Assembly: GCF_001591405.1 (NCBI RefSeq)
Contig: NZ_BCUV01000009.1
Coordinates: 1-33,072 of the forward strand
From: Janibacter terrae NBRC 107853
GTDB lineage: Bacteria; Actinomycetota; Actinomycetes; Actinomycetales; Dermatophilaceae
Length of the DNA: 33,072 nucleotides
Direction: 5' to 3'
The position numbers and the translations under genes are program-made. Position 1 is the first letter of the stretch, and the number at the start of each line of letters is the position of its first letter. Shown in pieces: positions 2,018-14,705 of this stretch. The notes beneath the pieces were generated by a model. It was not told the DNA's origin. It was given only the letters and a program-made list of their open reading frames with translations, and did no database searches.

Positions 2018-2494
2018 TCAGCAGGTCTCGATCCGCGACTCGCTCGCGAGCCGCGTGAAGTCCGGCCCGAGGACGACGTCGACGGTCGTGCGCGCCCGGC
2101 TGTCCGCGAGCTTCTCGAAGTGGCCGACGTGCAGGGCGACGAGCTTGGCGCCCTTCGCCCCGGCGGAGCCGTAGCGCAGCTGGCCCCGGCCGGTGACCTT
2201 GCGCTTCTTCGGGTCGTTGGCGACGGTCTTGACGGTGAAGCCGCGGGCCTTGAGGTCCGACGCGACGCGGGCGGCGAGGCCGTCGCGGTTGGTCGCGTTG
2301 TAGACGTTGACCTCGACCTGCTTGGGCGAGGTGGTGCACGTGACCGACCGCGTGACCGGCGCTGCCTGCTGCCTGCTCACGGTGTCGGCGCGGATGTAGG
2401 ACAGCGCGTACCAGGCGGCGTAGAAGATCAGGAGCAGCACGAGCAGGATCGTCACGACGGCACGTCGGCGACGGCCACGCGCCTCGTTGCTCAT
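2018..2494 (-). CDS. LytR C-terminal domain membrane protein
   Basis: A 158-residue single-pass membrane protein: an Arg-rich cytoplasmic N-terminus, a transmembrane segment at about residues 14-35, and an external LytR_C domain (PF13399 type) with the typical VEVNVYNATNRDGLA start and a VDVVLGPDF end. LytR_C domains occur alone or behind LCP ligase domains in cell-wall glycopolymer attachment; the job of the free form is not established. The start ATGAGCAAC at 2494 is preceded by GGAGG at 8 bases; an ATG at 2515 with a weaker GAGG is the alternative. It follows the VapB-like gene closely, so the two are probably one transcript. A larger tandem LytR_C protein lies at 13797-14705. Confidence 0.8.
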   Translation of the reverse strand: MSNEARGRRRRAVVTILLVLLLIFYAAWYALSYIRADTVSRQQAAPVTRSVTCTTSPKQVEVNVYNATNRDGLAARVASDLKARGFTVKTVANDPKKRKVTGRGQLRYGSAGAKGAKLVALHVGHFEKLADSRARTTVDVVLGPDFTRLASESRIETC

Positions 2495-2521
2495 GCCGTA
2501 GTCCTCCGGTGCCATGACGCC

Positions 2522-11273: not shown

Positions 11274-12545
11274 TTGAGCCTGGTTGTCCAGAAGTACGGC
11301 GGTTCGTCGCTCGCAGATGCCGAGAGCATCAAGCGCGTGGCCCACCGCATCGTCGAGACGAAGAAGGCGGGGAACGACGTCTGTGTCGTCGTCTCCGCGA
11401 TGGGTGACACGACCGATGAGCTGCTCGACCTGGCCGAGCAGGTCAGCCCCGTGCCCCCACCGCGCGAGATGGACATGCTCCTCACCGCAGGTGAGCGCAT
11501 GTCCATGGCCCTGGTCGCCATGGCCATCGCCGACCTCGGGCACAGCGTGCGTTCCTTCACCGGCAGCCAGGCGGGCGTCATCACCGACGCCGCCCACGGC
11601 AAGGCGAAGATCATCGACGTGACGCCCGGCCGGATCACCTCCGCGCTCGGCGACCGGCACATCGTCATCGTCGCCGGGTTCCAGGGCGTCAGCCAGGGGA
11701 CCAAGGAGATCACCACGCTCGGGCGCGGTGGCTCCGACACCACGGCGGTGGCGCTCGCGGCGGCCCTCGAGGCCGACGTGTGCGAGATCTACACGGATGT
11801 CGACGGCATCTTCACGGCCGACCCGCGCGTCGTCCCCTCGGCGCGCAAGATCGACAGCATCTCGCACGACGAGATGCTGGAGATGGCGGCCAGCGGCGCC
11901 AAGATCCTCCACCTGCGGTGCGTCGAGTACGCGCGCCGCTTCAACATGCCCATCCACGTGCGTTCGTCCTTCTCCTCGAAGGAGGGCACGTGGGTGGTGA
12001 CCGCCGATCCCGAAGGGACCCAGGACATGGAAGAACCGATCATCGCGGGTGTCGCGCACGACCGCAGCGAGGCCAAGATCACCGTCGTCGGCGTGCCGGA
12101 CGAGCCCGGCCGCGCCGGGCAGATCTTCACGACCGTCGCGAAGGCCCAGGTCAACATCGACATGATCGTGCAGAACGTGTCCGAGGCCGACACCGGCCGC
12201 ACCGACATCTCCTTCACCCTCCCGATGAGTGACGGCCAGCGTGCGGTCGAGGCGCTCATGGGCACCAAGGACGAGGTCGGGTTCGCGTCGATCCAGTACG
12301 ACGACCAGATCGGCAAGCTCTCCCTCGTCGGCGCCGGGATGCGGACCAACCCCGGTGTCTCCGCCACCTTCTTCAGCGCGCTCGCCGGCGCCGGCATCAA
12401 CATCGAGATGATCTCGACCTCCGAGATCCGCATCTCGGTCGTCACCCGCATCGACCAGCTCGACGAGGCGCTGCGCGCCGTGCACACCGCGTTCGACCTC
12501 GACACCGAGGGCGAGGCCGTCGTCTACGGGGGCACCGGTCGGTGA
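11274..12545 (+). CDS. lysC: aspartate kinase
   Basis: Phosphorylates aspartate, the first step to lysine, threonine, methionine and diaminopimelate; 423 residues. The amino acid kinase domain has VVQKYGGSS at 4-12 and GRGGSDTTA near residue 150; two ACT domains occupy about 265-420 and would mediate feedback inhibition. The start is TTG at 11274, with GGAG 7 bases upstream, giving the conserved [13 protein letters not shown]-terminus; an ATG at 11175 in the same frame would add 33 unrelated residues. An internal start at 12027 probably makes a separate beta subunit. The Asd-like gene overlaps the stop by 4 bases (GTGA). Confidence 0.96.
12027..12545 (+). other. internal start of the aspartate kinase beta subunit
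   Basis: An ATG inside lysC, in frame, opens a 172-residue product beginning [20 protein letters not shown], that is, both ACT domains. Corynebacterium glutamicum and Bacillus make such a beta chain from an internal start, the corynebacterial one having the same length and a very similar MEEAVLTGVATDKSEAK start. GAAGGGA lies about 10 bases upstream as a possible ribosome binding site. Use in this organism is inferred. Confidence 0.6.
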
Positions 12546-13618
12546 CCGCCTTCCCGTCGTCCTCCGCCCGGCCCACGTTGGCCCTGGTGGGGGCGACGGG
12601 ACGCTTCGCGGAGGCGATCGCCTCCGCGCTCGCCCTGCGGGATGACGCCTGGGGTGAGATCCACCTGCTCGCCCCGGGCGTCTCCACCCGGACCCTGAGC
12701 GTCCGGGGCCGGGAGCAGGTCATCGAGCCGCTGCGCGAGGACTCCTTCGAGGGGGTCGACGTCGCCCTGTTCAACCTCGCCCCCGAGATCACCCCTGAGT
12801 GGGCGCGACGGGCGGTCGCCGCGGGCGCCGTCGTCGTCGACGCCAGTGCCGCGCACCGTCTTGACCCCGACGTGCCCCTCGTCGTCCCCGGCATCAACTC
12901 CGTCCTCGTCGCCGACCGCCCCAAGGGGATCGTCGCGCTGCCCGGCCCGGTGACCTGGGGGCTCATCGACGCCGCCCATGTCCTGCACCAGGGCTGGGAG
13001 CTGCAGCACCTCGTCGTCACCGGCCTCATCGCGGCCGTCTCCAAGTCCGACCGCGGCGTCGCCCGCCTGCGCGAGGAGCTGCACACCGTGGCTGCCGAGC
13101 CCTCGATCGGCCAGCACCCCGGCGACGTCCGCGCCGCGGTCTCGGACCTGCCGATCGGCTCGCCCTTCCCGGCCCCGTTGGCGCTCAACGTCATCCCGTG
13201 GGTCGGGCAGCCCGACGAAGGGGGATACACCACCGCCGAGCTGGCGGTCGCCGACGAGGTGCGCAAGATCCTGCGCCTGGGTCCGCAGGTGCCCGTCGTC
13301 GCCACGCTCGTGCAGGTTCCCGTCGTGCTCGCGCACTCGATGGCGCTGCACGCCCGCTGTGCCCGCCCCGTCGCGATCGACAAGGTGCGCCAAGCCTGCG
13401 TCGCCGCCCCCTCGCTCGTCCACCTCGACGAGCAGGACGGCGAGGTCCCGACCCCGGTCGACAGCGTGGGCATCGACCCGCGGTTCGTCGGCCGCATCCG
13501 CCAGCCCAAGGGGGCCGGGCACCACGTCGACATGTTCGTCAGCTCCGACACCACGCGCCGCGGGGCGAGCGCGATGCTCGCCGTGGCCGAGATGGTCGGT
13601 GCCGAGTCCCGACGGTGA
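12542..13618 (+). CDS. aspartate-semialdehyde dehydrogenase-like protein lacking the catalytic cysteine
   Basis: A 358-residue protein with the fold and length of aspartate-semialdehyde dehydrogenase: GATG near 17-20, VDVALF, a [20 protein letters not shown] block, [21 protein letters not shown] and a C-terminal [17 protein letters not shown]. The residues that make the enzyme work are replaced. The NPNC motif reads LPGP, with Pro136 in place of the nucleophile Cys; the YQAVSG region reads IAAVSK, losing the substrate Gln; CVRVPV reads LVQVPV, losing the Arg (Q258); and GATGxVG and SAGG are altered at the cofactor site. His265 is kept. The frame is intact and coupled to lysC by GTGA, so it looks maintained. 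A true Asd must be encoded elsewhere, or the fold has a regulatory or new role. Confidence 0.85.
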
Positions 13619-13753: not shown

Positions 13754-13796
13754 CGACCGTGGGGACGGACACCGCATGAGGGACCAGGAGGGCGAC

Positions 13797-14705
13797 GTGG
13801 ATCTGCAGCCTGACGAGGAGCGCGCCTCGTATCGCGTCGTGGGCTTCGACGAGCTCGACGGCTCGGCCGCGGAGCACTACCGCCGGCAGCGTCGGCGCCG
13901 GCTCCTGCTCTTCGTCACCCTGCCCGGTCTGATGCTCGGCACCGCGACGGTGGCCACGGCCTACGGCACCGGTCTCATCGGCACCGAGGCGACGGTCTGC
14001 GAGCCCATCAGCGAGCCCGCCCCTGAGCGCGACTCCTTCGAGATCCAGCTGCTCAACAGCAACGACACCAACGGCCTCGGCAGCGAGGTCGCCCGCGAGC
14101 TGACGCTGCGCGACTTCGACGTCGCCTCCGTCGGCAACGCCGACAGCTCGGTCTACGTCAAGGGTTCGGCGACGATCTACTACGGCGAGGAGGGGCGCGA
14201 CAACGCGCTGCTGCTGCAGAAGCAGATCCCCGGCGCGAAGATCTGGAACGACGCCCGGCCCGGCGACAGCGTGCAGCTGGTCCTCGGCTACGGCTACGAC
14301 AAGCTGGTCAAGGAGCCCGAGCCGCCGCTGCCCGCCCCCTCGGAGATCACCCTCAACGTCTACAACACGACGTGGAAGGAAGGTCTGGCCTCGGAGGTCG
14401 CCGATGACCTCAGGGACCGCGGGTTCAAGATCAAGGCCACGGGCAACGACCCGCAGATGAGCTTCCTCGAGAAGGAGGTCGCGATCATCCGCTTCGGGCC
14501 CGAGGGCCAGCGCTCGGCCAAGCGGCTCGCGCAGCAGATCGAGGGAGCCCAGCTGCAGAAGGACGACCGGACGAGCCGCAAGGTCGACCTCGTGCTCGGC
14601 AACAAGTTCGAGCGGCTCAAGCCCGAGTCCCGGGTGCCGCAGGTCAAGCCGTACGTGCGTCCGGCCGAGACGATCCAGAAGCCCTGCGTGCCCGAGGGCT
14701 CGTGA
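13797..14705 (+). CDS. membrane protein with two tandem LytR_C domains
   Basis: A 302-residue protein: a basic cytoplasmic segment (YRRQRRRR), a transmembrane helix at about residues 36-58, then two consecutive LytR_C domains, the first starting FEIQLLNSNDTNGLGSEVAR and ending VQLVLGYGYD, the second starting ITLNVYNTTWKEGLASEVA and ending VDLVLGNKFERL. Cysteines just after the membrane and near the C-terminus could form a disulfide. The role is unknown, probably at the envelope. The GTG at 13797 has AGGAGG at 5 bases and is preferred; an in-frame ATG at 13776 adds 7 residues without a good ribosome site. The PFK gene overlaps its stop by 4 bases (GTGA). Confidence 0.85.
   Translation: MDLQPDEERASYRVVGFDELDGSAAEHYRRQRRRRLLLFVTLPGLMLGTATVATAYGTGLIGTEATVCEPISEPAPERDSFEIQLLNSNDTNGLGSEVARELTLRDFDVASVGNADSSVYVKGSATIYYGEEGRDNALLLQKQIPGAKIWNDARPGDSVQLVLGYGYDKLVKEPEPPLPAPSEITLNVYNTTWKEGLASEVADDLRDRGFKIKATGNDPQMSFLEKEVAIIRFGPEGQRSAKRLAQQIEGAQLQKDDRTSRKVDLVLGNKFERLKPESRVPQVKPYVRPAETIQKPCVPEGS

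Follow-up and report, generated by a model that had tools for sequence, protein, structure and literature searches.

A lysC-linked homolog of aspartate-semialdehyde dehydrogenase in Janibacter, apparently maintained without its catalytic residues

The lysC locus of Janibacter terrae

The window, by which is meant the whole stretch of 33,072 nucleotides analyzed from Janibacter terrae NBRC 107853, carries the gene order dnaX, recR, a DUF5063 gene, lysC, a gene resembling that of aspartate-semialdehyde dehydrogenase (Asd), a LytR_C gene, and a phosphofructokinase (PFK) gene (Table 1). The GTG start of the Asd-like open reading frame sits inside the stop codon of lysC, and the sequence-only reading of this DNA, which had described an intact frame overlapping lysC by GTGA, was correct on this point. 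A search of the genome returned a single full-length LysC match, the other match scoring 18.8 bits. The Asd-like gene was found in 15 same-genus genomes of the search at 67-89% identity, and the eight matches that carry titles (75-89% identity) come from Janibacter hoylei, J. indicus, J. anophelis, J. corallicola, J. limosus, and others. The genus is filed under Intrasporangiaceae by NCBI. The window holds two LytR_C genes, one at 13776-14705 (+), directly downstream of the Asd-like gene and carrying two LytR_C stretches, and one at 2018-2515 (-).

Table 1. Features of the lysC-asd-like region in the window, and lysC loci of relatives in which the downstream gene is absent.
Feature	Position or locus	Strand	Remarks
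lysC, aspartate kinase	11274..12545	+	TTG taken as start codon; carries AA_kinase (Pfam, 182.9 bits) plus ACT domains
Asd-like gene without the catalytic Cys (predicted clade A pseudoenzyme)	12542..13618	+	
Altered nucleotide loop, codons 14-24	12581..12613	+	Mostly GATGAVG in active clade A
LPGP replacing NPNC, codons 133-136	12938..12949	+	Catalytic Cys position 136 is Pro
Ile replacing the substrate Gln, codon 163	13028..13030	+	
Gln replacing the substrate Arg, codon 258	13313..13315	+	
lysC loci without clade A	L244, L246, L247, L249, L252-L259, L261		13 related genomes

Active site and fold of the Asd-like protein

The protein has the length and fold of an Asd. The two-domain fold is complete and predicted with confidence, and the dimerisation domain is intact. 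The earlier claim of a full-length Asd fold without the catalytic Cys and the substrate Gln and Arg, and with changed loops, is upheld by the LPGP motif, Ile163, Gln258, and the predicted fold. Among 20 aligned proteins of the Janibacter group, position 136 is Pro in 19 and Ala in one, Asn135 has become Gly and Arg258 has become Gln in all 20, and Gln163 has become Ile in 18 and Val in two. Residues of the NADP loop are altered in the same alignment. A further member of the group, read later (G488), has the motif LPGD with Val at the Gln position and His at the Arg position. His265, Glu239, Lys242, and Arg106 are retained in 20 of 20, and, given the roles that these residues presumably have, the kept set would suit a phosphorylated ligand. 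The protein falls below the NCBIfam Asd equivalog cut-offs, just under for NF011456 (221.3 vs. 223) and further for TIGR01296 (189.4 vs. 324.2).

In a few relatives the Cys is displaced one position earlier (MPCG, SPCA), as would be expected if the protein had kept Asd activity with a shifted nucleophile. For the window protein, however, this is scarcely credible. No Cys or Ser occurs at positions 133-137 of the Janibacter-group proteins read, the Gln, the Arg, and the nucleotide loop are altered as well, and the genome contains a normal Asd. On this sequence evidence the gene encodes a putative pseudoenzyme that is maintained, in which the catalytic residue is gone while the predicted fold and purifying selection are kept.

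Two lineages of Asd

A second, normal asd, for which the sequence-only reading had called for a search, lies in the same genome at C3:209647-210675 and has NPNC, YQAVSG, RVPV, and the His all present. The Asd dimerisation domain has three matches in this genome, namely the canonical Asd, the window gene, and a third at 82.8 bits that is taken for ArgC. The window protein shares just 32-36% identity with the aligned sequences of the second type of Asd, here called B. Trees place clades A and B in separate groups, which rules out that the active Asd was recently duplicated to give the window gene; also opposed to this reading are 51 genomes where the sole Asd found is a clade A protein that retains PNC, Gln, and Arg. 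These comparisons place the window gene in "clade A," an Asd lineage that is old and linked to lysC. The gene had been called a maintained dead copy. That it is maintained without catalytic residues holds, but "copy" has to be corrected because the intact clade A relatives are the sole Asd found in those 51 genomes; rather than duplicating the organism's own active Asd, the gene represents a separate lysC-linked lineage. A frameshift or assembly error was also considered and is ruled out, as the Cys is absent in all 16 genomes of the genus that were read.

The B gene has one of two locations: in some genomes it separates lysC from clade A, and in others it lies away from this locus. These two kinds of B fall in different parts of the B group. 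The alignment of B comprises 53 of 55 rows, G026 and G043 being left out, and the Cys, Gln, and Arg are present in all 53.

Loss of the cysteine and presence of a second Asd

A first search gave a match in 137 of 147 genomes, and the 78 clade A copies listed (over 215 bits) were read together with the 55 B rows. Two further searches, of 396 and 186 genomes and overlapping with the first, brought 57 more clade A copies, so that 135 were read in all. This total refers to copies read; further clade A copies listed in the 396- and 186-genome searches stay outside it, and ten loci refetched with larger flanks (L195-L204) are counted once only. The presence of B was scored as the number of matches per genome, not by reading each B gene.

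Where no B was found (55 genomes), the Cys is kept in 51, all with PNC, Gln, and Arg. The four Cys-less exceptions, G015, G045, G080, and G098, are 79, 84, 95, and 91% complete, respectively, and are split into 210-550 contigs; some of the 51 Cys-keeping genomes are also incomplete. For G080, one search counts an unlisted second match, while two others show no second Asd. Where B is present (80 genomes), the Cys is lost in 72 and kept in eight. The Cys is thus lacking in orthologs beside lysC too, a comparison that the sequence-only reading had proposed. Five of the eight Cys-keepers (G021, G055, G438, G469, and G481) retain PNC, Gln, and Arg despite the presence of B, and the assemblies of G469 and G481 have 5% contamination. 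When Cys loss is tabulated against B, Fisher's exact test returns 9.7e-24 on the raw counts, a value that treats genomes as independent when they are not. The raw association between Cys loss and a second Asd is strong, but the sequence trees supply too small a number of independent contrasts to test it formally. Among the 76 Cys-less clade A copies, the Arg position holds Gln in 34, Arg in 38, and another residue in four.

That Cys loss accompanies the presence of B, together with the intact dimerisation domain, is what would be expected if the clade A protein formed mixed oligomers with the active Asd and so tuned B. Such a partnership is improbable, however, in view of the identity of only 32-36% to the B rows and the position of B beside clade A in only 18 of the 80 two-gene genomes.

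Parsimony on the clade A trees, two of which were built with the active-site columns left out, gives five changes of Cys state, and the starred (well-supported) branches force three. The figure of five is only an estimate because the placement of the group with tandem genes differs among trees and the Cys-less branches, which are long, may attract each other. On starred branches, only one to three pairs contrast Cys loss with B, and such numbers cannot reach significance. From these contrasts G015, G045, G080, and G098 were left out in a second run, and then also G469 and G481, because the assemblies are incomplete or possibly mixed; all six remain in the counts of 135 copies.

A scan of contigs gave 71 loci, eight of them from Janibacter. 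In the other 63 the Cys is kept in 62 (as PNC, not always NPNC) and is missing in L104. When sequences from other phyla, almost all of which have the Cys, were added to the tree as outgroups, Usg of Escherichia coli and the acidobacterial L104, both long rows, fell outside the actinobacterial group. The acidobacterial gene (L104:3968-4996) has no PNC motif and has VQAPV at the Arg position, and no lysC was seen by eye among the open reading frames listed around it. A genus from a different family of the order (G252 and G265; loci L278 and L279) has two Asd matches per genome, and its lysC-linked copy keeps a Cys with the NPN and Arg positions altered. This copy may represent the process at an early point.

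Selection and remodelling of the pocket

Purifying selection, which the sequence-only reading had proposed to look for, is evident in the dN/dS values, which are rough because the NG86 method disregards base bias. Ten genomes of the genus gave 45 pairs, whose median is 0.22 in clade A, compared with 0.27 in the active B and 0.11 in LysC. In 120 pairs from 16 genomes, clade A has a median of 0.20 and a maximum of 0.61; G001 is outlying, with its nine pairs in the 10-genome set at 0.42-0.61. Elsewhere, the group medians are 0.09-0.33 in 12 Cys-less groups (single pairs up to 0.35) and 0.09-0.22 in eight active groups. In one genome, G527 (L322), the start region of clade A is broken by an in-frame stop near the expected start, and the other copies read from its genus are intact. 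No other broken frame was seen among the 135 clade A copies, the stops flagged in single copies falling at the ends of matches.

These values bear on whether the gene is a slowly decaying relic, or a frame kept just for the translation of lysC or the stability of its message. Outright losses in several lineages, the broken start region of G527, and the long Cys-less branches would all fit a relic. Nevertheless, a median dN/dS of 0.09-0.33 in 12 Cys-less groups is not neutral, only one broken frame was seen in 135 copies, and a spacer would not conserve amino acids, so that this explanation has little to commend it.

The pattern of conservation differs within clade A. When the 20 Janibacter-group proteins are compared with 23 active proteins at cut-offs of 95% and 70%, 96 sites are fixed alike and 21 differ in the residue that is fixed, while fixation is relaxed at 28 sites and new at 13. 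By its residues, the pocket of the Janibacter group is remodelled and constrained, not shaped by drift alone. Another 35 aligned clade A proteins lack an intact site (33 are Cys-less), and they have the Gly of the third loop in 35, the Gln in 30, the Arg in 21, the His in 34, and the Glu in 35. Their state resembles an earlier step of the process, with the nucleophile as the main loss.

Comparison with known systems

Among known proteins, Usg (E. coli b2319; Pseudomonas aeruginosa Usg-1, PDB 2hjs) is the best parallel: like the window protein, it has the Asd fold and no catalytic Cys. The Cys position is Ser in E. coli and Ala in 2hjs, the Gln position is Ile and Leu, respectively, and the Arg position is Gln in both. 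Unlike the window protein, 2hjs has Asp at the His position. The closest solved relative of Usg, Asd II of Vibrio cholerae (2qz9), retains NPNC, so that Usg likewise gives the impression of a second Asd whose catalytic function has gone. The window protein is 30% identical to E. coli Usg and scores 129.1 against the Usg model NF005957/PRK08040, whose cut-off is 273 and to which E. coli Usg itself scores 683.5. Moreover, E. coli usg sits between pdxB and truA, whereas the window gene has no such neighbourhood and adjoins lysC instead. The window gene does not belong to the Usg family and is apparently of separate origin, and bacteria appear to have kept an Asd after loss of catalysis on more than one occasion. 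The available text of PMC6358828 gives no tested activity for Usg. E. coli usg (L271:4637-5650, -), although Cys-less, scores above the Asd cut-off in NCBIfam equivalog models.

The main rival to a function in the aspartate kinase step is a new job apart from LysC, with the remodelled pocket serving as a ligand-binding sensor or in a non-thioester activity. A new pocket predicts what is seen in the Janibacter group, where 21 sites are fixed to a different residue and 13 formerly variable sites are newly fixed, and E. coli Usg, which has no lysC linkage, matches at the positions of the Cys (Ser), Gln (Ile), and Arg (Gln). In contrast, the 35 other clade A copies retain much of the old pocket and all copies read adjoin lysC, which leaves this rival doubtful, though the strongest of the alternatives.

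The actinobacterial Asd (EC 1.2.1.11; Mycobacterium tuberculosis 3tz6) shares its fold and length with the window protein and, in relatives, the linkage to lysC; unlike that enzyme, the window protein is without the catalytic Cys and the substrate Gln and Arg, and its nucleotide loop is changed. Vibrio natriegens likewise has two Asd genes in its genome, but there both are active, Asd activity being reported for Asd1 and Asd2 in the text available of PMC12925634. A literature search, which covered PMC6358828, PMC12925634, and PMC1885841 as excerpts, gave no description of a lysC-linked Cys-less Asd.

Linkage to lysC and a proposed role

Clade A lies downstream of lysC in all 135 genomes, within 200 bases in 115, with B in between in 18, and at 305 and 586 bases in the remaining two. 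Among 24 lysC loci from genomes picked mostly for a seeming absence of clade A, 13 have no clade A downstream (Table 1). The gene is lost outright in these 13 genomes, across several lineages, and the label of clade A absence changes five times on the LysC tree, four of the changes being forced. Downstream of lysC in these genomes, a search for remnants of clade A gave weak matches only, with E values of 0.001 or higher. A comparison of LysC from 59 genomes with clade A and 13 without (five lineages), six with B next to lysC being set aside, revealed no signature of clade A absence, with 0-4 changed conserved sites per lineage vs. 0-5 in controls. Because 13 of the 24 lysC loci do without the downstream gene, any role as a regulatory partner or scaffold of LysC, such as the sequence-only reading suggested, would be dispensable at the scale of the family.

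Kinase-reductase assemblies occur in the fungal arginine pathway, where a kinase that makes an acyl phosphate is joined with a reductase of the Asd superfamily. Unlike the window protein, the reductase of those assemblies is catalytic.

The preferred explanation, with a probability of about 40%, is that the window gene descends from an old lysC-linked Asd that lost catalysis with B present and persisted as a non-catalytic component of the aspartate kinase step. The second Asd would have taken over the chemistry, presumably before the Cys was lost. Clade A would then have lost the catalytic Cys, with the substrate Gln, the Arg, and the nucleotide loop lost as well in the Janibacter group. The active ancestor may have bound LysC to hand over the unstable aspartyl phosphate, and the present protein would still bind LysC, holding or tuning the kinase. 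We infer this action on LysC from the linkage to lysC in 135 of 135 genomes and from the instability of the acyl phosphate, which favours an assembly of kinase and reductase in general. However, an old operon alone would give the adjacency to lysC, and B separates lysC from clade A in 18 of the 135 genomes. The lack of a LysC signature, the outright losses of clade A, and the five B-bearing genomes with PNC, Gln, and Arg intact also weigh against the proposal.

A more general form of the proposal, that within one bacterial order the resident enzyme was repeatedly retired after a second version arrived and was kept as a dedicated non-catalytic subunit of LysC, is unlikely. If it were true, LysC and Asd would work as an assembly in these bacteria. 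The Asd of lysine, threonine, and methionine synthesis is well studied, and here a lysC-linked form without catalytic residues is preserved in numerous genomes of a single actinobacterial family. Its relatives offer a natural series, in which the gene is active alone, is active beside a second Asd, has lost the Cys with the pocket kept, has a remodelled pocket, or is lost. Such a series lends itself to asking by what steps a pseudoenzyme arises from an enzyme, and whether LysC acts jointly with Asd.

For annotation, Cys-less proteins that score above the curated Asd cut-offs are called Asd automatically, and metabolic models could assign the activity wrongly. One such Cys-less copy, at L107:1998-3071 (+), reaches 365.4 bits against 223 and 333 against 324.2 in the two Asd equivalog models.
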